From: Thalassotalea crassostreae | Lineage (GTDB): Bacteria > Pseudomonadota > Gammaproteobacteria > Enterobacterales > Alteromonadaceae | Direction: 5' to 3' | Assembly: GCF_001831495.1 (NCBI RefSeq) | Contig: NZ_CP017689.1 | Span: 1,054,001-1,118,000, forward strand | DNA length: 64,000 nt | The notes under the pieces: model-generated | Told to the model about the DNA's origin: nothing | Database searches by the model: none | The model's input: the letters and a program-made list of their open reading frames with translations, nothing else | Part shown: positions 6,242 through 39,399 of the stretch, one piece after another | Layout of the letters: each line of letters starts with the position of its first letter | Numbering within the stretch: the first letter of the stretch is position 1 | Position numbers and translations under genes: made by a program

Positions 6242-7354
6242 ATGGACTTAAATCAACTACTTGAAAAAATGACCAAGGAAGATGCATCGGATTTATTTAT
6301 CACCGTAAACCTTCCTGCAAGCGCCAAAATTAACGGCGAGCTGCAACCAATTGATGATTCGGTATTAGATTATGATACGGCATTAGAGTTAGTACATAGC
6401 TCGATGAAAGAAAAGCAGCGTCAAGAATATGACGAAACCAAAGAGTGTAACTATGCGATTGCAGTTGATGGTATTGGTCGTTTTCGTATCTCTGCGTTTT
6501 GGCAGCGTGAAATGCCAGGTATGGTAATTCGTCGAATCGTGACTGATATTCCTGATGTTGATGCGCTAGGTTTACCTGCGGTATTAAAAGACATTGTTAT
6601 GTCTAAACGTGGGTTAGTATTATTCGTTGGTGGTACTGGTACCGGTAAATCAACATCGATGGCATCATTGATTGGTTATCGTAACCGTAATGCTCGAGGG
6701 CATATTCTTACCATTGAAGATCCAGTTGAATTTGTTCATGAACATAGTAAGTCGATGATCACCCAACGTGAAGTTGGCATGGATACCGAATCGTTTGATG
6801 CGGCGCTTAAGAGTTCTTTACGACAAGCGCCTGACGTTATTCTTATTGGTGAGATCCGCTCGCAAGAGATTATGGAACACGCCTTAAGTTTTGCCGAAAC
6901 AGGTCATTTATGTATTGCGACACTGCATGCAAACAATGCTAACCAAGCCATTGACCGTATTATGCACCTTGTACCGCCAGAGCAACATGAGAAGCTACAG
7001 TTCGATTTAGCCTTGAATTTGCGTGGTATTGTGGCTCAGCAACTTGTACCTACTCGTGATGGTCATGGTCGCAGAGCTGCTATTGAGGTTTTATTGAACT
7101 CACCATATATATCTGAGCTAATTAAAAAAGGCGAAGTAGGTGACATTAAAGAAGTCATGTCGAAATCGAGAGAGCTGGGCATGCAAACATTTGATCAGGC
7201 GTTATTTGATTTATATGAAGCCGGTGATATTAGTTATACCGATGCACTGCATCATGCTGACTCACCAAATGATTTACGCTTAATGATTAAATTACGTGGT
7301 GGCGATCAAGGCGGTATTGGTGGCTTAAAAGGTGCAACGTTAGACGGTGATTAA
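6242..7354 (+). CDS. pilU: PilT-dependent retraction ATPase PilU
   Basis: PilU is a PilT paralogue that boosts retraction force and depends on PilT for function. The 370-residue protein aligns with the upstream PilT over its length: DASDLFITVNLPASAKING at the N terminus, Walker A GGTGTGKST (residues 130-138), ILTIEDPVEFVHEH, Walker B VILIGEIRSQEI and the His-box HLCIATLHANNA. It has the extra C-terminal tail typical of PilU, ending in a glycine-rich stretch. Its RBS (AGGGTTTAGTT) follows the pilT stop directly, so the pair is one transcript that ends at the terminator at 7387. Confidence 0.96.
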   Translation: MDLNQLLEKMTKEDASDLFITVNLPASAKINGELQPIDDSVLDYDTALELVHSSMKEKQRQEYDETKECNYAIAVDGIGRFRISAFWQREMPGMVIRRIVTDIPDVDALGLPAVLKDIVMSKRGLVLFVGGTGTGKSTSMASLIGYRNRNARGHILTIEDPVEFVHEHSKSMITQREVGMDTESFDAALKSSLRQAPDVILIGEIRSQEIMEHALSFAETGHLCIATLHANNANQAIDRIMHLVPPEQHEKLQFDLALNLRGIVAQQLVPTRDGHGRRAAIEVLLNSPYISELIKKGEVGDIKEVMSKSRELGMQTFDQALFDLYEAGDISYTDALHHADSPNDLRLMIKLRGGDQGGIGGLKGATLDGD

Positions 7355-10778: not shown

Positions 10779-10938
10779 ATAGTAAATACTAGATTTGATA
10801 AATAGCGAAATTGATCCCATTGTTATTATATGGGCTGTTTACCGGTCTGATAATATAAGACAAAGAAATAAGTCTTATTAGTACTTACTACAATGCATAT
10901 TTGGAATTACTTATTAGGGCTTTATATGGGGGTTGTTT

Positions 10939-11493
10939 ATGGATAGTTTAGAAAACCAGTTATTGATCGCAATGCCGAATTTGAATGACCCGTATTTTCA
11001 AAAAACGGTTACCTACATTTGTGAGCATAATAATGAAGGTGCGATGGGGTTGATCATCAACGTCCCAGTGCGCATTACATTAAACGAATTGCTGGCCCAA
11101 ATAGATGCAGATAAGAATAATACAGATACTCTCAATCAACGAGTGCTTGCAGGTGGACCTGTGTCTGCTGATAGGGGGTTTGTATTACATAACACTCAAA
11201 AGGGCTGGGATAGCTCATTAGCATTGAGCAGTGACATAATGATCACTACAAGCCGAGATATTCTTGAATCAATGGGCACCGAAAAAGCGCCAAACCAGTT
11301 TTTGGTAACATTAGGGTATGCAGGCTGGGGTGCTGGCCAACTTGAACACGAGATTGGTCAAAATTCATGGTTACACACTGAGGCTGACGCAGATATATTA
11401 TTCAATACACCGATTGAACTGCGTTGGCAAAAAGCGGCAGAAAAACTAGGTATTGATTTAGGTCATTTGTCTAGTGATGTTGGCCACGCTTAA
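10939..11493 (+). CDS. yqgE: YqgE/AlgH family protein (UPF0301)
   Basis: A 184-residue member of UPF0301, called AlgH in Pseudomonas, whose molecular function is uncertain; the family has been linked to regulation of alginate and other pathways. Recognisable blocks are LIAMPNLNDPYFQKTVTYIC at the N terminus, GAMGLIINVP, VLAGGPVSADRGFVLH and LGYAGWGAGQLEHEI. The ATG at 10939 is preferred over a TTG two codons upstream because the purine-rich GGGGG tract stands about 7 nt before the ATG. It precedes ruvX, the usual partner gene. Confidence 0.95.
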   Translation: MDSLENQLLIAMPNLNDPYFQKTVTYICEHNNEGAMGLIINVPVRITLNELLAQIDADKNNTDTLNQRVLAGGPVSADRGFVLHNTQKGWDSSLALSSDIMITTSRDILESMGTEKAPNQFLVTLGYAGWGAGQLEHEIGQNSWLHTEADADILFNTPIELRWQKAAEKLGIDLGHLSSDVGHA

Positions 11494-11552: not shown

Positions 11553-11987
11553 ATGGCCAAATCGTCAAAAGACAAAGGGATGCGTACTATATTAGGGTTT
11601 GATTTTGGCACCAAATACATTGGCGTAGCTGTTGGTCAAGAAATAACCGGAAGTGCGTCCCCGGTGAGGTCAGTAAAAGCAAAAGATGGAGTCCCAAATT
11701 GGGATAATATTGAAACCATAATTAGAGAGTGGGAACCCGACTTATTAGTGGTAGGTTTACCGCTTAATATGGATGGTAGTGAGCAGTTGCTAACTAAGCG
11801 TGCTCGTAAATTTGGCAATCGAATGTCTGCTAAATTTTCTATTCATGTAGATATGCAAGATGAGCGGTTAACCACCGCCGACGCTAAAGCTGAATTGTTT
11901 GAGCGAGGCGGTTATCGAAACCTACAAAAGGATAATATTGATTGCCAATCGGCTGTTATCATCCTGCAAAGTTATATGGCTGAATAG
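11553..11987 (+). CDS. ruvX: YqgF/RuvX Holliday junction resolvase-like nuclease (pre-16S rRNA processing)
   Basis: A 144-residue RNase H-fold protein. It has the first acidic motif [14 protein letters not shown], the central [13 protein letters not shown], the catalytic [10 protein letters not shown] and the C-terminal [12 protein letters not shown]. YqgF is essential in Escherichia coli and takes part in 5'-end maturation of 16S rRNA; it was named RuvX for predicted resolvase activity. It lies 60 bp after yqgE on the same strand. It converges with the GGDEF gene cluster, whose last gene ends 28 bp beyond; no clear terminator lies in that short gap. Confidence 0.95.
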
Positions 11988-12015: not shown

Positions 12016-13836
12016 TTATACTAATTGAAGCTTTGTCTGGTATCGAATGACGCAATTTTTATTCTGCTGTTTGGCTGTCACTAGTGCTTGTTCAGAGTCA
12101 TTGAACAACTGTTTAATATCATAGCCACTGGTTGTAGTATCACTAACCCCAAAACTGGCTGAAACATCAAATTGGTAGCTAATATTTTTAGTGTCTAATA
12201 CGTTAATTGCATAACGGTAGTTTTCGACAAGATTCATCGTTCTTTTAATATCTTTATTGGGGATTAGAAAGCCAAATTCATCGCCACCTAAACGTCCTTT
12301 AATTACATCGATTGGCAAATGTTCATTACTTAAATCAATAATAAGCCTGATTAACCGGTCACAGCGGTCGTTTCCTTGCAGCTCATTGACATTTCTTAAA
12401 TTATCAATATTCAATATGACTAATGCGTAGTTCGTCGCTATTATTTGACCTCTTGCAATCTCTTTTTGACAGCATTCTAAGAAATGATTTCGTTGCATCA
12501 CTTTAGTGGCATCGTCAAAGCATAATTGTTCTTCAATAGAGCGTTTTAGGCGCCAATTGTTATAGAGCATTTTTAATAAAAATAATATACATAGCGTCAG
12601 TAATCCTTGGTATATACGGCCGCCGACAACAAAGTTTTCTAATTTTTGCGAAATGTTTTGTTGAAACTTCGAATGCTTATTTTCTTGAACGATTGATTGT
12701 TGATATTCTCTTAATTCATTTTCCAGGGTGTTCAATTTGAATTTGATTTTATTAAGGGCTACAGACTTTTCACGCCAAATATTTGTTATTTTATGCTCTA
12801 ATAATATTTGCTGACGCAGGGTACTTATCTTTGCTTCAGTATTGTCAAATTTATTGGCAATGTTATGGGCAATACGATACGCGTTTAATAGCGCAGCATT
12901 GTTCGGGTGTTGCTCTTTATTAAGTATAGCTTTATCAACATATACAGTGGCAGTGGAGAGATCGCCGAGGTGATAAAAAGTCGTCGCTAGAGCACTATAA
13001 AATTTCAAATTATTTAGAGAAAAGTTGGTCGTCTCTAGTTGTTGTTGATGATCCAATAACAGTTTATTTGCTTGTGAAAATTTTTCTAGTTCGATTAACT
13101 CTGTTGCTACATCAATAATGATTTGGCTGTGTATTATCTGTTCGCCACTTTTCAGGCAATAGTTTTTTGCTTCTTCGACAAATGAGCTTTTAATACTAAT
13201 TTCGTTTAGGGCGAACAATGTATTTAATTTTTGCGATATGGTGAAACACAAATCTCTGGAAGATAATGAATTTCTATCGATAGTGTCGAGTTCGTTTAAA
13301 TTTTGCAACGCCTGCGGATAATCGCCTAGCTGATTATAATACCAGGCAAGGGTAGACAAGGTATCATACTTAACTTTTTGTTCGAGTAATTCATTGTTAA
13401 GTAATGACATTATCGGCTCGATATAATTACTACTTTTTCGATAGTTTTCCAGTTTGGTTTCTAGATATAAAATATTGTTCAAGGCGACAATGTTGTAATT
13501 TATGTTTCTAGACGTAGTGTTTTTGTTGTGGTGATATATTGCCTTAATAAAGTCTCCGTTCAGAGCAGAATTATAACCAATTAAATAATTCAATTGTTCT
13601 CTTTGCGAAGTCGATAAACGTGTCAATCTTGATTTCAGAATGCTAATGATTTGCTGCGACTCATGTAAGTTACTGCTTTTTATCTTATGAGCGTATTCAA
13701 TCAGTTCGCTCGACGATAATGAACTACTTTGCGCATGAGCAGTTAATGATACTGTATAAAACATAACGCCAAAAGCTAGCGTCAAAGAGCATAATTTAAA
13801 TTTTATTATCAGTGATTTAATATTATTCATAGACAT
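12016..13836 (-). CDS. TPR-transmembrane-GGDEF protein (module copy 2, B type)
   Basis: A 606-residue predicted signalling protein. Residues 15-36 form a signal peptide, 45-330 are helical TPR-like repeats predicted to be periplasmic, 355-400 are coiled coil, 403-425 are a membrane helix and 440-600 are a cytoplasmic GGDEF domain. The motif GGDEF is intact (517-521) and guanine-side residues are partly kept, but the first metal Asp of diguanylate cyclases is Asn476 (LNID), so activity is doubtful; no RxxD inhibitory site is seen. It overlaps the end of the A-type gene by 14 bp and so is likely translationally coupled. It resembles the gene at 16027-17889 along its length (QIISILKSR...LNYLI). 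The signal recognised is unknown. Confidence 0.85.
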   Translation of the reverse strand: MSMNNIKSLIIKFKLCSLTLAFGVMFYTVSLTAHAQSSSLSSSELIEYAHKIKSSNLHESQQIISILKSRLTRLSTSQREQLNYLIGYNSALNGDFIKAIYHHNKNTTSRNINYNIVALNNILYLETKLENYRKSSNYIEPIMSLLNNELLEQKVKYDTLSTLAWYYNQLGDYPQALQNLNELDTIDRNSLSSRDLCFTISQKLNTLFALNEISIKSSFVEEAKNYCLKSGEQIIHSQIIIDVATELIELEKFSQANKLLLDHQQQLETTNFSLNNLKFYSALATTFYHLGDLSTATVYVDKAILNKEQHPNNAALLNAYRIAHNIANKFDNTEAKISTLRQQILLEHKITNIWREKSVALNKIKFKLNTLENELREYQQSIVQENKHSKFQQNISQKLENFVVGGRIYQGLLTLCILFLLKMLYNNWRLKRSIEEQLCFDDATKVMQRNHFLECCQKEIARGQIIATNYALVILNIDNLRNVNELQGNDRCDRLIRLIIDLSNEHLPIDVIKGRLGGDEFGFLIPNKDIKRTMNLVENYRYAINVLDTKNISYQFDVSASFGVSDTTTSGYDIKQLFNDSEQALVTAKQQNKNCVIRYQTKLQLV

Positions 13837-15766
13837 ACTTTAATGACGATTTATCAATTATATCTTTTGATTTTAGTTGCATCGATTTATCAAAATTAAC
13901 AACCTTTTGAGTTTTCGATGATTTAGCACAGCGCAGTGCTAGAGAACTATCAGTCAATAAGCTTTTAAGAGTAAGGTTGCTAGTTGATGAGTCAGTAAAC
14001 CCAATACTCACGTTAAAATCCGTTTCCTTAATAAGTAAGCTACTTGCAATTAATTTGCTTTGCTTGCGAATGTCATCACTTAATTGTTCAATTTTGTGTT
14101 TTGTCTTTTGATTATAAATAACAGCGAATTCATTGGCGCCAATTCTACCAATACAACATCCCGACGAAGCTAGTTCTTCTATCATTTGTGCTGTTTTGTA
14201 CAGCAGCATATCACCAGTTTTAATACCGTATTTTTTGTTTATCGCTCTAAAATGATCAATATCTATAATCACCATACTTACCAGTGAGTGCTGCTTCTGT
14301 GCTTTGTAGATTATGGATGAAAATAAATCCATGGTTCGTGTTCTATTGTTGAGTTTTGTGATTGGATCGAGCTGTTTTTTTAAGCCAGAAATAACCTGCA
14401 AGTGACGGACATAAAATATCAGCGCAACCAATAAAAGAATGATTAATATGAGTGAGCCATAGATGTAACTATCTATCTGTATTAGATGCTGATAATGGTG
14501 ATTTTCGCCATAGTTTTGTATACGAGTATTTACTTTTTCATTGAGTAAATTAGCCATTTGTAGTTTTTGTTTTTGCTGGCCAATATTTGCATGTTTTATT
14601 TGTGCTCTGGCGATGTTTTCTCGACTCGAAAGTTGTGCTTGAGAAAGCATATTTTGATGATACATTTTTAAATAGGATAGGGCACCTGTCTTATCGCCTT
14701 GGTCATAAGATAATTTAGACAAAATGTCATAAACACTGAGCATCCAACGATTAGTGACTATGTTGATAGGGGTGTTAATTGCTTCGTCTGAAAAATATTT
14801 TGCCTTTGCATAATGACCGATTTGATAGTTTGCTTTAGCTAAATTTGAATGGAATATAATGTCTAATGTTGTCTGATTAAGTGACTCTACTTGTTTAAAA
14901 TATTGAGTCAATAAGTCTATAGCGCCTTGTGCATCTGAATTGTTGATTAAATGTGTTGAATACTCACCGACGGTATACAGTATGGCGAGATGTTGATTGA
15001 CATCGCTACATTCGTCGATGACCCTTTTAAATCCTTGGCTATCTACCTGATTTGGAAAAATGTTAATATCAATTTGAAATTTTTGACTGTGATATAGGCA
15101 TAGATCAATTGCATTTGTCTGGCTATTATTGCGCAGCGACAGAAAAGTTAACGCGAGTTCATCTTCACCAATGTTTTGGTAAAAGTTGGCAATGACATTA
15201 AGTGCTGAGTTTTTTAAATCTATAGATGTGACTTGATCAAACTCCGCTAATAGATCGTCAATTGAAACAAGTAGTGAATCATAGTCATGGTAAATAGCGG
15301 ATAAACGAACAATGGCTAAATTCGCATAAAAACGTGTTTCGATATCTTTAGATTGTTTGGTAATGATTAAACTTTTTTTTGCTCGTTCAAAAGAGTTTTT
15401 ATAAAACAAATTTATACCAACTAGATATTCAAATTTATCATTCTGAAGCGCAGTAAATTGTGTTTTATGGGGCTCTAGGTAACGTTCAAGTTCAATAAGT
15501 TGAATATTTTCGCCTTCTACTCCATTGGAGATAGGTTGAAAGGCCATTGCTAGAAGTTCATCTATTGTTTTACTGTCTAGTTTATTGTCTAGTTTATTGC
15601 TGCTTATTATTCGCGTAGGCAGATTTTTAGTAAAACTATTCGTTGTTTTTAATGCAATATCTTTAGTCGATGGCACAGTTTCTTCGGCAAAAGCGCAGTG
15701 CATCGCAAATGATATTAGCAATGTGATTAAATGCATAACACGTTTTAAATTATGCTGATGTCTCAC
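13823..15766 (-). CDS. TPR-transmembrane-degenerate GGDEF protein (module copy 2, A type)
   Basis: A 647-residue protein with a signal peptide (1-27), periplasmic TPR-like helices (about 85-375), a coiled-coil stretch, a membrane helix at 433-453 and a C-terminal GGDEF-family domain. The signature is GANEF (543-547), with Ala and Asn replacing Gly and Asp/Glu, while both metal-side Asp residues are kept (IIDIDHF, Asp502 and Asp504). It is the closest relative in the window of the gene at 17879-19774, both ending in LKYxY plus acidic residues; that tail contains the start of the next gene. It is the first gene of module copy 2, after 260 bp of AT-rich sequence in which no clear promoter was picked. 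Likely a binding or scaffolding pseudo-cyclase, which is inference. Confidence 0.85.
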   Translation of the reverse strand: MRHQHNLKRVMHLITLLISFAMHCAFAEETVPSTKDIALKTTNSFTKNLPTRIISSNKLDNKLDSKTIDELLAMAFQPISNGVEGENIQLIELERYLEPHKTQFTALQNDKFEYLVGINLFYKNSFERAKKSLIITKQSKDIETRFYANLAIVRLSAIYHDYDSLLVSIDDLLAEFDQVTSIDLKNSALNVIANFYQNIGEDELALTFLSLRNNSQTNAIDLCLYHSQKFQIDINIFPNQVDSQGFKRVIDECSDVNQHLAILYTVGEYSTHLINNSDAQGAIDLLTQYFKQVESLNQTTLDIIFHSNLAKANYQIGHYAKAKYFSDEAINTPINIVTNRWMLSVYDILSKLSYDQGDKTGALSYLKMYHQNMLSQAQLSSRENIARAQIKHANIGQQKQKLQMANLLNEKVNTRIQNYGENHHYQHLIQIDSYIYGSLILIILLLVALIFYVRHLQVISGLKKQLDPITKLNNRTRTMDLFSSIIYKAQKQHSLVSMVIIDIDHFRAINKKYGIKTGDMLLYKTAQMIEELASSGCCIGRIGANEFAVIYNQKTKHKIEQLSDDIRKQSKLIASSLLIKETDFNVSIGFTDSSTSNLTLKSLLTDSSLALRCAKSSKTQKVVNFDKSMQLKSKDIIDKSSLKYVYE

Positions 15767-16026
15767 TGAAGAAAACGATCCATGTTAAAACTATTTCCCA
15801 TAGGTAATCTGGTTTATTGCCGCCATTTAGCCAGAGCATTGCATATTAATTTATTTACTAATAGGTTATCTGCTACTGCTAGTTAAAGCTATCCAAAGCT
15901 ACTTTATGCGACTATTTAAATTGTAATAAATAACTATAGCCAATTGTTGCCTGTTATCAACTTTGATTGCAGCTTTTTTTGCTGGTTTTTTTTCGTAGTT
16001 TTACTCGAAGGTTAGCGTTACTAATT

Positions 16027-17889
16027 TTAGGATATACGATTTTCTTTTTTTTCTTGTTTTTGCTTTCCAAGAGCCAACTCCGCTTGCTTAACTAGTCGTT
16101 CGATGTTTATTGTGTTTTCAACAACATTGTCAGCAATACCAAAACTGATCGTAAGCGTGTATAAACTGTTGATTTGCTTTTTGCCAATCTCGACAATTTC
16201 TTGCTGATAACCTGCCAAGTTTTCTTCTACTTTCTGGGTGTAAACATAAGGTACAAACAGGGCATATTCGCCGCCATTTAAGTTGCCTGTGATAGTACCT
16301 TTTGGAAAGTGAAGTTCGCTTGTGGAAAGTATAGTTTCGATTAATCGATTACAGCGGTCATCTCCGTGTGTCTCATTTAATCTTCGTAAATCGTCAATAT
16401 TGAAAACCAACAGAGCGTAACTACCTTGTTCAGCGGTTAGTTTATCAATGTTTTCTTGGCATAAATTTAAGAAGTACGGTCGTAATAATAGTTTGGTATT
16501 GCTATCAAATTTTATTTCTTGCTCAATGGCTTGGATTTTTCTAATGCTGTCATAAATTACTTTAATTAGAATCACGATAAATATCACCAAAAAGCTAATA
16601 TAAATAACTCCCCCGATAATGAATGATTCAAACTTTTGCGTCATCATTTGTTGGTGTTGTTGTCGTTTTACTTCTTGGTTTATGAATTGTTGCGTTTCTT
16701 GTAATTCAACCTCAAGTGATGAAATTTTTGATTGCATTTTATTATAAGCGACGGTTTTTAGTCGAATGTTCTGGTTATGAATTTTTACCAAAGTTAATTT
16801 CTGACGCAATGCATTTATTGTTTCTAATGTGTCATTTTGCTGCTGAGCAATTTTATGAGCAATTTCATAGGCAATTAAAAGCTCACGAGGTGAACCCGAA
16901 TCATCTTTATAACTTAACGCTTTAGTGATAGAAGATTTAGCTTTGTTAAGTTTGTTTAAAGACTGCTGCGCATTAGCAAGCTTTGCATAAAAAATTAATT
17001 TGTCTAAAGGATAACTTAGCTCGTCTACCATTTGAATATGGTCTAACAAAAGCACTTCAGCCTGTTTATATTGTTGGTCCAAGATATGCTTTTCTGCAAT
17101 GGCTACGATTAGTTGTAAGTAAAGGTTGCTTTCGTTACTTAAGCCGCAATGCTTTAACCCTTTTGCGATTAAAGGATCTGTTGTTGATAGTTTTTCTAGA
17201 GCCAATAGCGCGTTGGCTTTTTGCGTATAAGTGAAACATAGATCTCGATTTGATATAGAGGCAAGATCTAATAGTTCAATATCATTTAACTTAGTTAAAG
17301 CCTCCGCCGGTGCATCAATATTTAAATAGAAGTACGCCAGCGTGTTATATGTTTCGTAAAGATCACGGGTATTTAATGTTTCATTATTCAATATTTGAAA
17401 AATTGGCTCGAGATACGCAATGCTTTGGTCATAATTTCCGAGTAATGCCTCAATAAATAATATGTTATTGTTGGCTTTTATACGGATGCTAGGGTCGATT
17501 GAATTGAGGTTTTTTCGATGGTATAAAATTGCATTATCGTATTGCCCCTTCATTGAATATTGATAGGCGATCAGATAGTTTAACTGTTGATTCTGTACTT
17601 TTGATAAACGGCTCGTTCTCGATTTTAAGATACTAATAATTTGCGAGGATTGTGCTAAATCAGAACTTTTAAGAGTAATCGCTTTATCTATTAACTGCTG
17701 ATTTTCACGAGTACTAAATATTTGATTATCTTGGGCCGCCAATGAACTTTGTGCTGTGATACAAAGCATACCTAAAGTGATTATAACTTTTCGTCGTAGC
17801 GCTAGTTTTAGCGCAAGTGTTGGCCATAAAGTTAATTTTAAAACCCAATATAAAGTCATCAATAATCGTCTTAAAAAATTACTCGTCAT
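16027..17889 (-). CDS. TPR-transmembrane-degenerate GGDEF protein (module copy 1, B type)
   Basis: A 620-residue protein built as the B-type gene of copy 2: hydrophobic export segment near 33-52 after an unusually long basic N terminus, TPR-like helices (70-340), coiled coil (375-418), membrane helix (424-446), and a GGDEF-family domain (460-610). The signature is NGGEY (538-542) instead of GGDEF, and the first metal Asp is Asn497 (FNID), so it should not make c-di-GMP. It overlaps the upstream A-type gene by 11 bp. A later Met at residue 11 or 41 could be the true start; the overlap with the A-type tail argues for the long form. Function unknown. Confidence 0.85.
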   Translation of the reverse strand: MTSNFLRRLLMTLYWVLKLTLWPTLALKLALRRKVIITLGMLCITAQSSLAAQDNQIFSTRENQQLIDKAITLKSSDLAQSSQIISILKSRTSRLSKVQNQQLNYLIAYQYSMKGQYDNAILYHRKNLNSIDPSIRIKANNNILFIEALLGNYDQSIAYLEPIFQILNNETLNTRDLYETYNTLAYFYLNIDAPAEALTKLNDIELLDLASISNRDLCFTYTQKANALLALEKLSTTDPLIAKGLKHCGLSNESNLYLQLIVAIAEKHILDQQYKQAEVLLLDHIQMVDELSYPLDKLIFYAKLANAQQSLNKLNKAKSSITKALSYKDDSGSPRELLIAYEIAHKIAQQQNDTLETINALRQKLTLVKIHNQNIRLKTVAYNKMQSKISSLEVELQETQQFINQEVKRQQHQQMMTQKFESFIIGGVIYISFLVIFIVILIKVIYDSIRKIQAIEQEIKFDSNTKLLLRPYFLNLCQENIDKLTAEQGSYALLVFNIDDLRRLNETHGDDRCNRLIETILSTSELHFPKGTITGNLNGGEYALFVPYVYTQKVEENLAGYQQEIVEIGKKQINSLYTLTISFGIADNVVENTINIERLVKQAELALGKQKQEKKENRIS

Positions 17890-19774
17890 ATGAGTACTTC
17901 AACTGTTCATTTTCAGGCTGTGGCTGAGTTTCATTGTGCTTCGAATAAATAACGATATTACTTGCTTGCGTAGCTTTAGTTGTGTTTTTCGCTTGCATTA
18001 GAGCATTACTGCTATCACGCATTAATACTTTAGGTGATAAGCTACTTAGCATTGAATCACTGATGCCAATATCCAATTTTAAATCTGTTACGTCAATTTT
18101 TAATGCTCTAACCATGTCTTCAGTTTTAGTGCTAATAGAGCGTGCATGGTGGATAACCTGTTGGCTATTTTTCTGATAAAAGATTAGAGCAAATTCATTG
18201 GCACCAATTTGACCAACTTCTGCAAGTTCTTTGGTTTCTTCAGCTAATATATTAGCGATGTTTTTCAGTACTTCATCACCAACTGCAAAACCATATTTGT
18301 GATGAAATCTGCCGGCATTATGTAGTTTTATAATCATTAAACTGAGTACCGAATTCTGATGCTGAGCTTGATATATGGTTGTCGCAAGTACTTCCATGGT
18401 TTTGCTGCGATTTTTTAACTTTGTTAACGGATCATGAAATTGCTTATTATGTGTCAACATTTGACGATGACGCAAATAGAAAATAACGGCAACAGCAATA
18501 ACGATTATGCCAAACAAAGCAGCATAGACTAGTTCACCCTGTTCAACCTCCTGTTGTTTTTGTAAATTACTTTTCGCTGTTCGAATTCTTTGCTCTATAT
18601 TAGATTGCAACAAATTCTCTAACTTTTGCTTTTGGTTTTGCTGATTGATGTTGATATGGTTTATTTGTTCTCGAGCAACTTCTTTGAGCTGATCGAGTTC
18701 AAATAGATGTTCTAACCGAATTTGATATTCATTTAAATAAGCTAGTGATTGTGGGTAATTCATTTCGCTATATTCAACTTCTGACAAAACTCGGTATACA
18801 TTAGTTAAACTTCTGTGAAACTTACTTGATAGCGGCAACGCTAGAGCGGCCTCAGCATATGTTTTTGCTTTGTCAGTTGCACGTATCGCTAAATAGGCTT
18901 CGGCAAGCACCGAATAATAAATAACAGATAAATTAGGGTGATTAACTTGTTTTACCCTAGGTAAGTATTTTTCACCATAATCTATGATTTGCTGATTTTG
19001 ATCTGCGCCTAGCATTTTTTCAGAAAACAAAATGATATCGTAAAGTATATGAGTTTGTTTCTCATCTGTATCACAGTCTTTTATTATCTGTTCTAAGTCT
19101 TCAAAACTTAGCTGGTAATCTCTTAGCTGACTTTTAATTTGAAGTGATTTACCTCTTATATTACAGCGCGATCTTAGTGACGAGTCTGTCGTATCTGTTA
19201 ACTGTAAATACGATAGTGCAATTTGATCTTCACCGATTCGTTGATAGAAGTTAGCTATATCGTCATAGGCGTCATTTTTGGCTGACTGTGATTCAATCTC
19301 GTCTATTTCAGCAATTAATTTACTAACATTAAGCCCCGCGTTTTTAAATTCACCTAACAATGAATGAACGCTGACTAGGGTTCTTGTGGCCTCAAATCGG
19401 ATGGCGGTGACTTCTGATTGTTGAGCTTCTAATAGTAATTGAATCGCTTGTTGATACTTGCCCTCTACCGCTCTTTGAATTGCCAGTAAGTGTTGATAGC
19501 TATTTAATTGGTTTTGATTAAACTGCGGTTTTAGTTCGGTAAGATTGTCTACTAAATTTTTATATGTGACAGCGTTAACACTACGCAGTTTATGGGCTTT
19601 TAGTAATAAACTGTCGATTTGCTGGCTGGTAATAAGTGAGTTATCTGTGGAGACCATTTCAGCAAAAACGGGTTGTGTTGCAAAGTTTATAATTGATAAA
19701 CATGCAACCAACAACCCGAACATCGTATTTTTTGCTTTATAGCTTGTTAAAACAAGTAGTGGGAATCCATTCAT
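17879..19774 (-). CDS. TPR-transmembrane-degenerate GGDEF protein (module copy 1, A type)
   Basis: A 631-residue protein with signal peptide (cleavage near FA-EMVS, residue 39), TPR-like helices (50-360), coiled coil (365-412), membrane helix (414-434) and a GGDEF-family domain (445-600). This is the most eroded of the four: signature GANEF (524-528), and both metal Asp positions lost (IIKLHN, Lys483 and His485). It begins only 14 bp after the serA stop, so it may be read from the serA transcript. Met18 is an alternative start that leaves a more compact signal peptide; neither start has a clear RBS. It ends in LKYSYDE, which overlaps the start of the next gene. Confidence 0.85.
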   Translation of the reverse strand: MNGFPLLVLTSYKAKNTMFGLLVACLSIINFATQPVFAEMVSTDNSLITSQQIDSLLLKAHKLRSVNAVTYKNLVDNLTELKPQFNQNQLNSYQHLLAIQRAVEGKYQQAIQLLLEAQQSEVTAIRFEATRTLVSVHSLLGEFKNAGLNVSKLIAEIDEIESQSAKNDAYDDIANFYQRIGEDQIALSYLQLTDTTDSSLRSRCNIRGKSLQIKSQLRDYQLSFEDLEQIIKDCDTDEKQTHILYDIILFSEKMLGADQNQQIIDYGEKYLPRVKQVNHPNLSVIYYSVLAEAYLAIRATDKAKTYAEAALALPLSSKFHRSLTNVYRVLSEVEYSEMNYPQSLAYLNEYQIRLEHLFELDQLKEVAREQINHININQQNQKQKLENLLQSNIEQRIRTAKSNLQKQQEVEQGELVYAALFGIIVIAVAVIFYLRHRQMLTHNKQFHDPLTKLKNRSKTMEVLATTIYQAQHQNSVLSLMIIKLHNAGRFHHKYGFAVGDEVLKNIANILAEETKELAEVGQIGANEFALIFYQKNSQQVIHHARSISTKTEDMVRALKIDVTDLKLDIGISDSMLSSLSPKVLMRDSSNALMQAKNTTKATQASNIVIYSKHNETQPQPENEQLKYSYDE

Positions 19775-19788
19775 CTACAATATTTATA

Positions 19789-21018
19789 CTAGTGAATTAA
19801 ACGAGCTCTAATCGTACCATCAATCTCTTTTAAATGTCTAAGTGCTGCTTCACTATCATTTGCTTCGACGTCAATCACCACAAAACCAACATCGCCTTTG
19901 GTTTGAAGATATTGCGCTGCGATGTTTATTTGTCGCTCAGCAAAGGTTTGGTTAATTTGCGTCAAAATACCCGGTAAGTTTTTATGAATATGCAATAAAC
20001 GACTGCGATTGGTATGTGCTGGCAATGACACTTCAGGGAAGTTCACGGCAGATAATGTCGAGCCATTATCAGAGTATTTTGCAATTTTTCCTGCAACTTC
20101 ACGGCCAATATTTTCTTGTGCTTCTTTTGTGCTGCCACCAATGTGTGGTGTCAGTATCACATTATCAAAACCTCTTAGCGGTGAAATGAATTCATCGTCG
20201 TTGGTTTTTGGCTCAACCGGGAACACATCGATCGCTGCACCAGCAACGGTTTTATTTTCAAGAGCGTTTGCTAAAGCGTCAATATCAACCACTGTTCCGC
20301 GCGATGCATTGATAAATATGGCACCTTTTTTAATGGCATCAAATTCAGCTTTAGCGATCATGTTTTGTGTTTCTACAGTCTCAGGTACATGCAGTGATAC
20401 CACATCAGAAGTGGCAAGTAATTCAGTTAGACTGTTTACTTGGTTGGCATTTCCTAGGGGTAGCTTAGTTTCAATGTCATAGAAATTAACTGTCATGCCA
20501 ATATGTTCAGCCATAATACCTAGCTGCATACCTATATGACCATAACCGATAATACCTAATGTTTTACCACGAGCTTCAACTGAGCCTGCGGCAGACTTTA
20601 ACCATACACCTCGGTGAGCTTTCGCACTTTTCTCAGGAATGCCACGTAATAACAATAAGATTTCACCTAATACTAATTCTGCAACAGAGCGAGTATTTGA
20701 AAATGGCGCGTTAAATACTGGAATACCACGGATTTGAGCTTGGTCTAAATCAACTTGGTTAGTACCAATACAAAAGCAACCTATCGCTGCCAATTTATTC
20801 GCATGCTTTAATACATCTTCAGTTAATTGAGTTCTTGAACGAATACCGACAAAGTGTACGTTGGCAATTTTTACTTTCAATTCGTCATCCGAAATTGAAC
20901 CGGTAAGGTATTCAATATTGCTATAGCCATTTGATTTAAGTACTTCAAGGGCAGATTGATGCACACCTTCAAGTAGCAATATTTTTATTTTATCTTTGTG
21001 AAGCGATGTTTGGGCCAT
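19789..21018 (-). CDS. serA: D-3-phosphoglycerate dehydrogenase
   Basis: SerA oxidises 3-phosphoglycerate with NAD, the first step of serine synthesis. The 409-residue protein is the E. coli-type length: a substrate domain, a nucleotide domain with GIIGYGHIGMQLG (from about residue 155), the catalytic Arg in NASRGTVVD, a Glu, and the catalytic His in TPHIGGSTKEAQ. A C-terminal ACT domain (LPGILTQINQTFAERQINIAA) carries allosteric serine feedback. The rpiA gene that often lies next to serA is absent here; instead the TPR-GGDEF cluster follows after 14 bp. Confidence 0.97.
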   Translation of the reverse strand: MAQTSLHKDKIKILLLEGVHQSALEVLKSNGYSNIEYLTGSISDDELKVKIANVHFVGIRSRTQLTEDVLKHANKLAAIGCFCIGTNQVDLDQAQIRGIPVFNAPFSNTRSVAELVLGEILLLLRGIPEKSAKAHRGVWLKSAAGSVEARGKTLGIIGYGHIGMQLGIMAEHIGMTVNFYDIETKLPLGNANQVNSLTELLATSDVVSLHVPETVETQNMIAKAEFDAIKKGAIFINASRGTVVDIDALANALENKTVAGAAIDVFPVEPKTNDDEFISPLRGFDNVILTPHIGGSTKEAQENIGREVAGKIAKYSDNGSTLSAVNFPEVSLPAHTNRSRLLHIHKNLPGILTQINQTFAERQINIAAQYLQTKGDVGFVVIDVEANDSEAALRHLKEIDGTIRARLIH

Positions 21019-23266: not shown

Positions 23267-25579
23267 ATGTTGAAACAAAAGTTACTGGCGCTCACGCTAG
23301 TAGGTCTTTCGTGCAGCGCTTTTGCTGCAAAACACTCTCCGCAAGAACAACATGGCGCTTTTGACTTAGCTGTGGCGAATGAATTTAAATTAATAGAAAT
23401 GCTGCGTGATTCTGGCAAAATTTCAAAAGATGCTTCAATAAATGATGCTGAAAATGCATTGAAAAGCTATTTAAAAGAGCGCCAACAAACGGAGCGTAAA
23501 AGAGCTGGCAATGTAGATTTTTCTTTTGCAAGTAAGATGAAATCGAAAAACTCATCGGTTAATCGTAGTTTGCAAAATGGCAAAGGAAATAAATTGGGTC
23601 AAGCCAAGAAAAAAGCCCCAAAAAATGTTGTGCTAGAAGAGTACGACGGTGATAAACGTACTGCCAAAATACTCGCTATCTTAATGGAGTTCCCTGATTT
23701 TCCGCACAACTCGATAACACCTGGCGAAACGGGTATGTACTATGAGGATTATAATCCAGCTCATTATGCTGAAATATTATTTAGTGAAAACGGCTGGACA
23801 GCGCCAAACGGCCACTTAGCCAATTCAATGAAAATGTATTATGAAAAGCAATCTGGTGACAGTTATTCTGTTGAAGGTTCAGTAGCGGGTTGGTATATGG
23901 CATCAAAACCAGCCGCGTTTTATGGCAACAATGTCGATGGAGATATTCAATCTTTGGTTAAAGAGGCATTAATGGCTGCAGCTGCGGATCCTAGCGTTAC
24001 TCTTGAAGATTTTGATATTGAAGATAGATATGACTTGGATAATGACGGTAACTATTGGGAACCGGATGGATTGGTTGATCATGTTATGGTTTTCCATTCT
24101 AGTGTTGGTGAAGAAGCTGGGGGCGGTCAATTAGGTGAGGATGCTATTTGGGCTCACCGTTGGAATTTAGGCGCTCCTTTTGCAATTGCTGGCACAACAC
24201 CTGAAGCAGATCCTTTACAATTAGGCGCTATGGGTGCGTTTGACTATACAGTAAATCCAGCTGATAGTGCGGTAGGCGTTATCAGTCATGAATATGGTCA
24301 TGATTTAGGTTTACCGGATGAGTACGATACTGAATATTCTGGGCGAGGAGAGCCTGTTTCAAGTTGGTCTCTTATGGCATCAGGTACGTGGGCTGGACGT
24401 CTCGGTGGTACTGAGCCAACTGGTTTTAGTGCATGGGCAAAACAAGAGTTACAAGCAAGCTTAGGTGGAAACTGGATGCATGGTGCAACCATTCATATTG
24501 ATGATATTGATAGCGAAGGTGTTACAGCATTAATTGACCAAGCAGTTAGTAAAGGTAAGAACAACGATGCAGTGCGCATTGATTTGCCGCCAAAAGAAAA
24601 AGTCATCGCAGTACCAACCAGTGGTGAGTATGCTTACTTTAGTGGTTCTGGCGATAGTTTGTTTAATCGTATGATCGGAACCGCAGACTTAACGGGTACA
24701 AACACTGCAACGGCTAAATTTAAAGCTTGGTATGATATCGAAACCGATTGGGATTATGCCTATGTTTACGCATTTGTTAATGGCGGTTTCGTTGGGATGT
24801 TACCAACATCTGTATCGACAAATGACAATCCTAACGCACAAAATAGAGGTAACGGCATTACCGGAAATTCAAACGGTTGGGTTGACGTTGAAATTGAGCT
24901 AACAACGTATGCTGGCGCTTCTTCAGTGACGTTAATTTTTTTGTATGAAACTGATGGTTATGTGTCTAACCCTGGCCTTTATGTAGACGATTTTGTCGTT
25001 GAGTCAGACCTAGGTACATTGGCAATGGCTAATGCAGACGTTGATGAGAACTTTTTTGCTTTTGATGGTTTTAACGTTGATAGTGGTATGAGTTACACCT
25101 CTCACTATTATTTAGCTGAGTGGAGAACACATCAAGGTATTGATAGAGGGCTTAGTAATATCAATATCGCTGGCGAAAACATGAAGTATGATGAAGGATT
25201 ATTAATATGGTATGTGGACGACAATTATACAGACAACTGGGTTGGTGTTCACCCAGGTGATGGTTTCTTAGGTGTAGTTGATGCAGATCGTCATTCCAAT
25301 ATATGGAGTGATAAAGGTGTAGCGTCTACACGTTACCAAATTCACGATGCAGCATTTGGTTTAGATAAGTCTGAAAAGATGTTTCTAGATTTATCTGATT
25401 ACGGTTTCACTTTACGTGATAATTTCACCAAACGTAATCCCGTATTTGATGATAGCGCTTCGTTTATCAGTAGTGATATTCCTGATGCAGGACGAGCTTT
25501 AACAAGTTATGGCTTAAAAATAAGAGTAACATCGCAAAGCAAAGATAAATCAGTAGGACAAATTCTGCTTTATAAGTAA
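23267..25579 (+). CDS. Secreted M6 family metalloprotease (immune inhibitor A-like)
   Basis: A 770-residue exported zinc protease of family M6, related to Bacillus InhA and Vibrio PrtV. The signal peptide ends at residue 20 (SAFA-AKHS). Residues 21-120 form a lysine-rich propeptide. The catalytic domain holds a DLDNDGNYWEPDG calcium-type loop (256-268) and the zinc motif HEYGH (341-345) followed by DLGLPDEYD. Residues 440-590 look like a beta-sandwich accessory domain (AYFSGSGDS ... LYVDDFVVESD). No PKD domain or sorting signal is apparent, so release to the medium is likely. It stands between tRNA genes, with its own terminator, which suggests insertion into a tRNA array. Confidence 0.93.
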   Translation: MLKQKLLALTLVGLSCSAFAAKHSPQEQHGAFDLAVANEFKLIEMLRDSGKISKDASINDAENALKSYLKERQQTERKRAGNVDFSFASKMKSKNSSVNRSLQNGKGNKLGQAKKKAPKNVVLEEYDGDKRTAKILAILMEFPDFPHNSITPGETGMYYEDYNPAHYAEILFSENGWTAPNGHLANSMKMYYEKQSGDSYSVEGSVAGWYMASKPAAFYGNNVDGDIQSLVKEALMAAAADPSVTLEDFDIEDRYDLDNDGNYWEPDGLVDHVMVFHSSVGEEAGGGQLGEDAIWAHRWNLGAPFAIAGTTPEADPLQLGAMGAFDYTVNPADSAVGVISHEYGHDLGLPDEYDTEYSGRGEPVSSWSLMASGTWAGRLGGTEPTGFSAWAKQELQASLGGNWMHGATIHIDDIDSEGVTALIDQAVSKGKNNDAVRIDLPPKEKVIAVPTSGEYAYFSGSGDSLFNRMIGTADLTGTNTATAKFKAWYDIETDWDYAYVYAFVNGGFVGMLPTSVSTNDNPNAQNRGNGITGNSNGWVDVEIELTTYAGASSVTLIFLYETDGYVSNPGLYVDDFVVESDLGTLAMANADVDENFFAFDGFNVDSGMSYTSHYYLAEWRTHQGIDRGLSNINIAGENMKYDEGLLIWYVDDNYTDNWVGVHPGDGFLGVVDADRHSNIWSDKGVASTRYQIHDAAFGLDKSEKMFLDLSDYGFTLRDNFTKRNPVFDDSASFISSDIPDAGRALTSYGLKIRVTSQSKDKSVGQILLYK

Positions 25580-36496: not shown

Positions 36497-37488
36497 TATT
36501 TATAGTCTCCCTTGTGGGAAAAGTGACAACTAAATTGATGGCCATGAAAGGTTTCAATTTGTGGCGCGATAACACACTTTCTTTGTGCATTTGGACATCG
36601 TGGTCCTAATCGACAACCCGCCGGTAAATGCTGTAATGACGGTATGCTACCTGGCAAAGCAACGAGTTCTGACTTTTTAGCAAAGGTTTCGCCTGTTTTC
36701 GGCGTACTGGCAATTAAAGCTTTAGTATAAGGGTGGAACGGCGTATTGAATATTTGCTCTGTACTGCCTGCTTCAACAAACTGACCGGAATACATTACTG
36801 TCAAATTTTCTGTCCAATGACTGATCTTTTCTAATTCGTGACTGATCAACAGAATAGACATGTTTTTTAACTGGTTTAAACTCGCCAAAAGGCGGAATAT
36901 TTGTGTTTGGTTAGTGGACTCCATCGATGCCGTAGGTTCATCGGCGATCAATAACTTAGGCTGTTTTGCTAAGGCGATAGCAATCATTACACGTTGGCCT
37001 AACGCCGAAGTTAATTGATGAGGATAACTTTTACGACACGCTTCATGTTTTTTTATACCTACTTTGTGGAGTAATTTAATAGCCGCTTCTTTTCTTTGTT
37101 GCGCTCGCTGCCAAAAAAAACCACTGAATTGTTTGCTGTCTAAAGACTCTTCGATTTGGTCACCGATACTATTGGTCGGATCTAGACAACTAATCGGCTC
37201 TTGAAAGATCATTGCCACATCTTGAGTGATAATTTGTTTTCGCTCTTCAATCGGCAATCTTAATAAGTCGATGCCTTGCCAATGAAAACGATCAGCATTT
37301 ACTTGCCATTTATCATCTAAAACACCAATCAGTGCTTGCGCCAGAATAGATTTTCCTGATCCAGATTCGCCAACTAAGCCTCGAAATTCGCCTTCCTTTA
37401 GCGCCAATGAAACCCTGTCTACAGCCAGAATGTTTTCTTTTTGGCCGACTAATTCAATACTTAAGTTTTTAATATCTAGTAAATTCAT
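36496..37488 (-). CDS. sapD: Sap peptide ABC transporter, ATPase SapD
   Basis: The 330-residue partner ATPase of SapF. It has Walker [10 protein letters not shown], a Q-loop [13 protein letters not shown], a variant signature [18 protein letters not shown] in place of LSGGQ, Walker [13 protein letters not shown] and the switch LISHELEKI. The C terminus has the oligopeptide-transporter domain with cysteines in [14 protein letters not shown], typical of DppD/OppD/SapD and capable of metal-cluster binding in relatives. The weak signature motif is normal for SapD. One-base overlaps with sapC and sapF show tight coupling. Confidence 0.93.
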
Positions 37489-38381
37489 TAGCTTTCTTTC
37501 TGTGTCTTAAGGGCGTGACGTAATCCTTCACCAACTAAGTTAGTAGAAATTACAGTAAATAGTATTGCTAGACCCGGTAAATATGAGGTCCAAGGAGCAA
37601 TATAAAATAAATCTAATGAGTTCTTCAGCATCGAGCCCCATTCCGGCATTGGTAGTGGGGCGCCTAATCCAAGATAACCAAGGGCGGCGATTTCTAAAAT
37701 CGCAACGGATTGAGAGAGAGTCGCCTGGATGATTATTTTATCGATAATATTAGGAAATATTGAGGTAATTAGTACTCGTATCTCACTTGCACCATCTAAT
37801 ATTGGGATTAGGACGTAACCCTTTTGTTGCTCTTCTTTAATGGCATCTCGTGTTACGTGAACAAATTGTGGGATCGAAACTAACGCGATAGCCCATATGA
37901 CGTTTTCAAGGCCAGGGCCTAGAATGGCAACAATGATAATTGCTAATAACAAGGAAGGTATCGACAATATTACATCGAGAAAATGGTTTAGAAAGCTCGA
38001 GCGTAACCCTCGAGTTAACGCCGAAAAAGAACCAAAGAACACACCAATTACCATGGCAAAGATAACCACAATAAAGCTTAATCCAAACGTTAAAGAGGCA
38101 CCATGAATCAGTCGAGATAACATATCTCGGCCTAAATCATCGGTACCTAATAAGTAACTAATATCACCGTCATCATTCCAAGAAGGCGGGAGTAATAATT
38201 TATCCAAATCATTTTCAAGCACATCATGTGGTGTGATAAATTGGCCAAATATAGCAATGATCACTAAAAATATATAACCACTAAATCCAATCATGGCGAT
38301 AGGCGTTTTACGAAACGTCAGCCATAATTGCTTCATTGGAGATGGAAACTCCTCTTCAACGTATATTGTTTCACGAGCCAT
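37488..38381 (-). CDS. sapC: Sap peptide ABC transporter, permease SapC
   Basis: A 297-residue DppC/OppC-type inner-membrane permease. It has an N-terminal cytoplasmic stretch, a first membrane helix (PIAMIGFSGYIFLVIIAIFG), a periplasmic loop with LLGTDDLGRDMLSRLIHGA characteristic of this permease type, and five further helices. The EAA-like coupling loop is around DGASEIRVLITSIFPNI. It overlaps sapB by 11 bp and sapD by one base, as in the enterobacterial sap operon. Confidence 0.93.
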   Translation of the reverse strand: MARETIYVEEEFPSPMKQLWLTFRKTPIAMIGFSGYIFLVIIAIFGQFITPHDVLENDLDKLLLPPSWNDDGDISYLLGTDDLGRDMLSRLIHGASLTFGLSFIVVIFAMVIGVFFGSFSALTRGLRSSFLNHFLDVILSIPSLLLAIIIVAILGPGLENVIWAIALVSIPQFVHVTRDAIKEEQQKGYVLIPILDGASEIRVLITSIFPNIIDKIIIQATLSQSVAILEIAALGYLGLGAPLPMPEWGSMLKNSLDLFYIAPWTSYLPGLAILFTVISTNLVGEGLRHALKTQKES

Positions 38382-39399
38382 GTTTTTTATGCCTCTGTAA
38401 CGGGTTGATTGCGACGTATATAAAATCAGCCAAAATATTAATAATAAAGGTAAAAGTTGCTAATGCAATGAGCCCACCTTGTATCGCAGTATAGTCGCGT
38501 TGGAAGATACTTTCGATCAACCAACTTCCTGCACCGTGCCAATCAAAAATTACTTCAGCTATCATAGCCATAGTCACTAAGTTTGCGAAATGTAAGCCAA
38601 TTTGTCTTACAATCGATACTAATGAATTACGAATACCATGATGCAAAATAATATGCGCTTGACTTAACCCCTTTGCTTTCGCCGCTTTAATATAATTTGA
38701 CTCTAACACTTCAAGCATTGAGGTGCGTGCTAATCGAATAAATATTGTCATCGGTGCCATAGCGACCGTAATCGAGGGTAAAATAATGTGCATTAAAGCA
38801 TCTTGGAATGCTTGATATTTATATGGTGTATCACTAAGTAAAATATCAATAAAAAGAAAACCGGTGACTGACTCAATTTCAAATAGCAAATTAAGCTGTC
38901 CTGAAGAAGGAAACCATGAAAGAGTAATTGAAAATATCAGAATAAAGATCAGCGCTAACCAAAATACAGGAATAGAGTAACCAAGCATGGCAAATGACAG
39001 AATGGCTTTATCAATTGTTTTTTTGTGAAAAATTGCTGCAACGAAGCCTAATGGAAAGCCAAATATCATGGCGATAAACAAACTCACTAAGCAAAGTTCT
39101 ATTGTTGCCGGTAAATACCGTAGTAACTCTTTGCTCACCGGCTCACCTGACGCCATCGATACACCAAAATTACCGCTAAATATCTGCTCGATATAAGCAA
39201 AGTATTGATGGAATATAGATTGGTCCATCTTATAGATTTGTGCTAAATCAGCGAGTTGTTTTTCATCGTTGTTAGCAACGCCTGTTAAGTTAACTAGTGC
39301 GTCACCTGGAAAGAAATAACTTAAGCTAAAACTTACAATGGATAAAATTAATAAGGTGAAAAATAGTAAATTTAGTCTTCTCAGAGTAAAGATTAACAT
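38371..39399 (-). CDS. sapB: Sap peptide ABC transporter, permease SapB
   Basis: A 342-residue DppB-type permease. It begins with an uncleaved membrane helix (LRRLNLLFFTLLILSIVSF), has a long periplasmic loop, and five more helices. The conserved coupling segment is ARTSMLEVLESNYIKAAKAKGL, which contacts the ATPases. It begins at the last base of the sapA stop codon. Order sapA-sapB-sapC-sapD-sapF is fully conserved, supporting the names. Confidence 0.93.
   Translation of the reverse strand: MLIFTLRRLNLLFFTLLILSIVSFSLSYFFPGDALVNLTGVANNDEKQLADLAQIYKMDQSIFHQYFAYIEQIFSGNFGVSMASGEPVSKELLRYLPATIELCLVSLFIAMIFGFPLGFVAAIFHKKTIDKAILSFAMLGYSIPVFWLALIFILIFSITLSWFPSSGQLNLLFEIESVTGFLFIDILLSDTPYKYQAFQDALMHIILPSITVAMAPMTIFIRLARTSMLEVLESNYIKAAKAKGLSQAHIILHHGIRNSLVSIVRQIGLHFANLVTMAMIAEVIFDWHGAGSWLIESIFQRDYTAIQGGLIALATFTFIINILADFIYVAINPLQRHKKHGS

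Follow-up and report, generated by a model that had tools for sequence, protein, structure and literature searches.

The 64,000-nt stretch of Thalassotalea crassostreae DNA analyzed here (the window, part of a 3.86-Mb genome in one contig) carries on its minus strand, between positions 12016 and 19774, four genes arranged as two A-B pairs, each encoding a protein with a tetratricopeptide repeat (TPR) solenoid, a transmembrane (TM) segment and a GGDEF domain. The reading that we favor, and whose chances we put at about even, is that these genes encode two cyclase-dead receptor partners that stem from a borosin peptide-sensing cassette, were orphaned and, as a pair, were duplicated again. In relatives, a TPR partner gene nearly always lies beside a borosin precursor, its fold resembles that of pheromone receptors and its output domain can be swapped, which together yield a testable proposal for the role of borosin peptides; the linkage suggests that these peptides may act as signals that have receptors of their own.

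The open reading frames (ORFs) lie exactly where the original prediction placed them, with the sizes and overlaps that it gave. A1 (631 amino acids, aa; 17879..19774) and A2 (647 aa, GTG start; 13823..15766) each have a hydrophobic N-terminal start, a TPR solenoid, a TM segment and a degenerate GGDEF domain reading GANEF; the metal-binding Asp is replaced by Lys in A1 and retained in A2, and the proteins end in LKYSYDE and LKYVYE, respectively. B1 (620 aa; 16027..17889) has a TPR solenoid, a TM segment and a degenerate GGDEF domain (NGGEY, metal-binding Asp changed to Asn), and B2 (606 aa; 12016..13836) has a hydrophobic N-terminal start, solenoid, TM segment and an intact GGDEF signature, with the metal-binding Asp changed to Asn and the inhibitory site (I-site) lost. 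The overlaps, 11 bp for A1/B1 and 14 bp for A2/B2, both depend on the start codon chosen, and in-frame later ATG codons are present in A1 and B1. The motifs reported as shared within each type were also found, GANEF in A1 and A2 and QIISILKSR in B1 and B2, and the C-terminal tail is indeed typical of A: within the genus, LxYx[FY] occurs in 16 of 19 A proteins and in none of the 16 B proteins. This tail is unlikely to be explained simply by the overlap with B, because it is also present in A copies without a B gene directly after them (L074 12525-14444 and L075 12253-14115; L-numbers denote the loci or regions compared and G-numbers the genomes).

A Pfam scan of the four proteins returned GGDEF as the sole domain over the cut-off, with TPR matches below it. 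By hydropathy a TM segment precedes the GGDEF domain in all four proteins, and an N-terminal hydrophobic segment exceeds the threshold in A1, A2 and B2 and falls below it in B1. AlphaFold models of B2 (mean predicted local distance difference test score 93.2, from 55 sequences) and A2 (87.5, from 52 sequences) consist of a TPR-like helical solenoid, a long helix of 106-107 residues that links it through the membrane to the remainder, and a GGDEF fold. Hydropathy and models thus agree with the topology proposed from the sequence, in which the solenoid is predicted to be periplasmic and the GGDEF domain cytoplasmic. A Cys pair in the solenoid is conserved without exception in the alignment (55 of 55 proteins), as would be expected of a periplasmic disulfide.

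All four genes are homologous, with BLASTP matching A1 to A2 at 31% over 596 residues (E-value 5e-82), B1 to B2 at 38% over 551 (E 3e-116), and A to B at 20-22% (E 6e-9 to 5e-19); the A-to-B matches place the four in one family with an older A/B split, and an independent origin of A and B is ruled out by homology over most of their length. In a careful tree A1 and A2 are sisters (100/100), as are B1 and B2 (100/97), the 35 proteins of the genus form a single clade (100/100) that divides into A (100/100) and B (95/91), and the branching order largely matches between the two. A quick 123-row tree agrees, with a warning of long branches meeting at A1-A2; neither tree includes the A gene of G002, whose assignment depends on its position and a weak BLAST match. 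Like therefore groups with like, both trees rule out a grouping of A1 with B1, and the whole-pair duplication that had been proposed is borne out. The claim of two different receptors holds insofar as A and B are separate clades, although by their sequences both arose through duplication of a single ancestral receptor; outside the genus the counterpart occurs as one gene or as simple tandem copies.

A-B homologs were found in 13 of 14 other genomes of the genus (G014 had no match), with A before B at a gap of -53 to +51 bp in 13 of 13. The expected linkage of A to B in related genomes is thus seen within the genus. The locus lies between serA (19789..21018, minus strand, in the window) and ruvX/yqgF (11553..11987, plus strand), flanks conserved across the genus, in the 12 loci where the fetched stretch included both; L071, on a short contig, has ruvX only. 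The separate clades, their largely matching branching, the fixed close order and the duplication of the whole pair make an A-B partnership likely. Additional A copies occur in G006, G007, G010 and G011. Individual loci also show an A partner of 782 aa without any Pfam GGDEF match (L070 8953-11301, in G002), an extra TPR-GGDEF copy downstream of B, in two ORFs of 440 and 180 aa and apparently decaying (L071 1719-3604, in G003), and an IS605-type OrfB gene between B and ruvX (L080 10266-11492, in G012).

The connection to borosins comes from what lies beside these genes in relatives. A SonM-family alpha-N-methyltransferase of the borosin type (MT) is present in 9 of the 14 other genomes of the genus and was found in none of G000, G001, G005, G008, G012 and G014; in the nine MT-bearing loci it sits within the A-B cluster together with a small ORF of 85-98 aa. 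L072 and L079 also hold a GNAT gene inside the cluster by Pfam, in a scan that did not include the similar-sized ORFs of other loci. The MT (METHYLTRANSFERASE) is a protein of ~270 aa with a PF00590 match in all seven proteins scanned, and a 15-row MT profile matched SonM (PDB 7LTC) at E 5e-104 and OphMA at ~1e-70, far more strongly than precorrin methylases (5e-5). Small ORFs beside the MT, whose features were judged by eye and not with a profile, begin with a helix like that of SonA, continue into a short and frequently Cys-containing hydrophobic stretch, and close with an acidic tail. PMC8429565 describes the split (type IV) borosin pathway SonM-SonA of Shewanella oneidensis, and L219 holds counterparts of both components and then a TPR-cyclase: an MT 93% identical to SonM, a 71-aa SonA-like ORF (6822-7037) and a 596-aa TPR-cyclase from 7038. 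Precursor-like ORFs of Steroidobacter and Povalibacter (L131 11426-11857 and L141 11470-11901) have long Lys-rich C-terminal tails, unlike the acidic tails elsewhere.

The tightness of this linkage across Gammaproteobacteria was assessed in several samples, some of whose loci are the same place (e.g., L120 and L079), so that their counts must not be added. An order-wide SonM search of 295 genomes gave 106 matches, from which 60 regions of ~13 kb each, mostly the higher-scoring ones, were taken blind to their neighbors. Of the 62 MT genes in these regions, 59 have a TPR partner on the same strand within 3.5 kb, 46 with a GGDEF domain and 13 without one in the same frame (among the latter, L237 and L261 have TPRs alone, and the GGDEF part of L227 is encoded by an ORF of its own); one of the three misses, L266, has a divergent partner (496 bits). 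Every one of the 75 TPR-profile matches in the blind regions falls within 3.5 kb of an MT, a local control only, confined to these ~13-kb regions. A second sample, consisting of the best 80 of 553 MT matches and hence biased to close relatives, has a TPR partner at 77 loci and a GGDEF domain in the nearest copy at 74; the other 3 end within 0.7 kb. Seen from the receptor side, when all 787 GGDEF candidates of 12 MT genomes were scored, 18 among the matches listed span 90% or more of the receptor model; 17 of them, all but G442:C17, are found no more than 2.5 kb from an MT. A search for relatives outside the genus, with full length counted by hand as at least 440 of 628 model positions, likewise placed 15 of 17 full-length matches next to an MT (exceptions G023:C14 and G015:C11). 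A class-wide TPR-cyclase search, which scored at most 3 candidates per genome, is unusable for absence. At L234, L235, L239, L241, L243, L245, L246, L248, L274 and L276 the nearest TPR-cyclase is directly upstream of the MT, not downstream.

The output domain of the partner, in most cases GGDEF, is exchangeable. The TPR-TM part is fused to HisKA-HATPase beside the MT at L199 (8883-12131), L206 (8474-11434, the second gene), L207 (8882-11671), L208 (10060-12132), L209 (8721-10733) and L211 (9064-11919), with receiver domains in the TPR-kinases of L199, L206, L207 and L211 and an Hpt match in one of the six kinase loci. Additionally, at L237 (3434-5614) and L261 (6895-10104), both of family f7, two or three TPR-like proteins of ~355 aa without GGDEF come after the MT, and the first of these matched the TPR part only. 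With the output swapped for a kinase or for nothing, the constant partner of the MT is the TPR module, not the cyclase. These observations also bear on a rather doubtful alternative, in which the TPR-GGDEF protein regulates borosin production in response to another envelope cue (stress or a wall fragment) through cyclic di-GMP (c-di-GMP) or a phosphorelay and the window's A-B genes are a leftover, rewired regulator. It would fit the facts that the identified output domains are all signaling ones, that A-B persists without an MT and that TPR domains bind many partners; a local regulator, however, need not stay beside the precursor while its output changes to a kinase or to nothing, and the fold resembles that of peptide receptors.

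In the window's genome the association has come apart. No borosin MT was found there with the A3 profile at E 1e-12 or with SonM at 1e-30, and its three PF00590 proteins are not among the borosin MT matches. The B1-A2 spacer (15767..16026, minus strand) contains no ORF of at least 30 aa that could be a precursor gene, the rest of the genome not having been searched for precursors; it was considered as the holder of an MT or precursor relic and none was found, the best match at the window locus being an unconvincing E 0.095. In the serA-A gap of the MT-less G008, near the start of A (L076 ~10937-10966), a weak 10-residue MT match (E 0.02-0.04) is either chance or a relic. The window therefore differs from SonM-SonA, and from its MT-bearing relatives with MT and precursor genes inside the cluster, in lacking a detected MT in its genome and a precursor at its locus. 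Since no MT was found, the receptors of this lineage, in which the pair was duplicated again, may now listen to neighbors' peptides or have taken another ligand. The window offers a natural experiment in which a receptor enzyme became a pair of pseudo-enzymes, and receptors were kept and multiplied with the peptide genes no longer in evidence.

The original prediction, whose core observation stands, overlooked both this split-borosin context and the state of the cyclase sites. The receptor alignment comprises 123 proteins, 88 outside the genus and 35 inside (19 A and 16 B), and catalytic competence was taken as a GG[DE]EF signature together with the metal-binding Asp, which we take to be the equivalent of PleD D327. 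GGEEF and the metal Asp occur together in 88 of 88 proteins outside the genus, whereas none of the 19 A and 16 B proteins combines the signature with the Asp; each of A1, A2, B1 and B2 is missing one or both, and the GGDEF domains of all four appear to be inactive as enzymes. Asn occupies the metal position in 12 of 19 A proteins and 14 of 16 B proteins, which suggests that the Asp was probably lost before the A/B split; A2 has Asp there. The RxxD I-site, an inhibitory c-di-GMP site that is not essential to all diguanylate cyclases, is present in 76 of 88 proteins outside the genus and 0 of 35 inside. Guanine-contact positions are mostly kept in the genus (Asn in 18/19 A and 14/16 B, Asp in 19/19 A and 14/16 B), with the Asn lost in A1 and the Asp lost in B1 in the window. 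A and B may accordingly be pictured as an obligate heterodimer of pseudo-cyclases that would signal by contact rather than by c-di-GMP synthesis, and that could be GTP-gated, given that most guanine-contact residues remain.

The original prediction knew of no described system with this coupled pair, but a bicistronic TPR pair is known from Vibrio vulnificus: in PMC12282931, RcbA and RcbB, the latter with a GGDEF domain, interact through their TPRs, and RcbA de-represses the cyclase RcbB. By analogy, A and B could be an ordinary cyclase pair in which B, activated by the degenerate A, has remained a c-di-GMP producer despite its changes, as the retention of GGDEF in 10 of the 16 B proteins, B2 included, might suggest. 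We consider this very unlikely, since signature and metal Asp are never found together in the 35 genus proteins and the I-site is lost in all. The two systems share an operon-like two-gene TPR arrangement with GGDEF in B, but RcbA and RcbB are predicted to be cytoplasmic, RcbB is an active cyclase and the C-terminal region of RcbA has no identifiable domain (PMC12282931), whereas the A-B proteins have a predicted TM segment before the GGDEF domain in all four, a degenerate cyclase site, and GGDEF in A as well. Cyclases of V. parahaemolyticus that are cited in that text share a predicted periplasmic TPR domain; they are said there to be encoded separately and to depend on the cyclase motif being intact.

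Loss of the cyclase site has not been accompanied by evident decay. dN/dS (the ratio of nonsynonymous to synonymous substitution rates) is 0.12-0.22 wherever dS is finite for a pair of A or of B genes, among them the A genes of the MT-less G008 compared with G013; the values are rough, with dS above 1 in several pairs and one B pair saturated, and the window's own pairs are too diverged. The A and B genes look constrained, which bears on another alternative, namely that the TPR protein serves the biosynthesis or transport of the peptide, as its periplasmic escort, protector or maturation factor, or serves immunity to it, its cytoplasmic domain merely coupling this to c-di-GMP. The TPR-only proteins with a hydrophobic N-terminal start that follow the MT in L237 and L261, and the lack of any recurring exporter or protease seen in the cluster, would suit such a role. 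However, the TPR proteins of the genus outlive the MT, the window's genome has them in duplicate, purifying selection acts on them in G008, and most copies retain a complete cyclase or kinase, making this alternative unlikely.

The modeled fold may point toward peptide sensing. The B2 and A2 solenoids can be superposed on Rap/Phr structures over ~300 residues at 6-10% identity, as can that of A2 on NprR, and these RRNPP receptors match the models as well as any TPR structure among the matches listed. The likeness is that of the modeled solenoids, and peptide binding by A and B is a proposal; RRNPP receptors carry a cytoplasmic TPR, whereas the window proteins, as judged from an N-terminal hydrophobic segment in 3 of 4, a TM segment in 4 of 4 and the Cys pair in 55 of 55, have a predicted periplasmic TPR fused to TM and GGDEF. 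By its linkage, the ancestral cassette would have comprised an MT, a precursor peptide and a protein of the inner membrane, its TPR solenoid on the periplasmic side and its diguanylate cyclase in the cytoplasm; the TPR groove may bind the borosin itself once mature and N-methylated, or a different extracytoplasmic peptide, in a Rap/NprR-like manner, and the long TM helix would relay the change on binding to the output domain. One bacterial borosin product was reportedly described later. We tentatively extend the binding model to a broader proposal, that split borosins are N-methylated peptide signals whose receptors are periplasmic RRNPP-like TPR proteins with a cyclase, a kinase or no output, that the A-B proteins of the genus are a cyclase-dead heterodimer, and that the window species eavesdrops with two pairs while making no signal.

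Several observations weigh against a receptor derived from a borosin cassette. TPR solenoids are common, and the eukaryotic peptide-binding TPRs LGN and APPBP2, whose matches we do not read as relationship, score as high as Rap; the TPR-only neighbors could be chaperones, not receptors. L264 and L271 have no partner, and in a class sample of 369 genomes only 3 of the 8 with an MT have a TPR partner (G423, G344 and G404), the other 5 having more distant MTs (below 250 bits). Five of the genus's 15 genomes, the window's included, retain A-B without an MT, so the tie to the MT is not absolute. No recurring exporter or protease was seen in the cluster and no evident signal peptide in the precursors, although the peptide would have to reach the periplasm. 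Finally, A and B evolve faster than the MT and serA: in G007/G011, the one genome pair having all four, dN is 0.06-0.15 for A and B versus 0.04 for MT and 0.02 for serA.

Some link between GGDEF and borosins is already in print: the legend of figure 1 in PMC11395268 lists a 'GGDEF-sequence-containing domain' among borosin architectures, and the main text of that paper has 0 occurrences of diguanylate, tetratricopeptide or TPR. The main text of PMC8429565 likewise contains none of GGDEF, diguanylate or tetratricopeptide, and the accessible part of PMC11285071 does not mention GGDEF. In literature searches borosin and diguanylate cyclase were not found together, and borosin with GGDEF only in PMC11395268 among the matches listed. 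Database searches with two-row profiles, which scored only the ~8000 best-sharing candidates, returned 2 and 3 proteins, mostly self, with relatives of B2 at 85% and 25% (one each).

The best-scoring promoter-like match of the region, 10/12, lies in the B1-A2 spacer at 15960-15933; promoter-like sites (34 versus 38.5 in shuffles) and terminator-like sites (9 versus 5.8) show no clear excess. Elsewhere in the window, genes of an oligopeptide-type ABC transporter (SBP_bac_5 and an OppC-like permease) at 37488-41051 lie ~18 kb or more from the locus, with no link shown, and an M6 metallopeptidase resembling Immune inhibitor A is encoded at 23267-25579.

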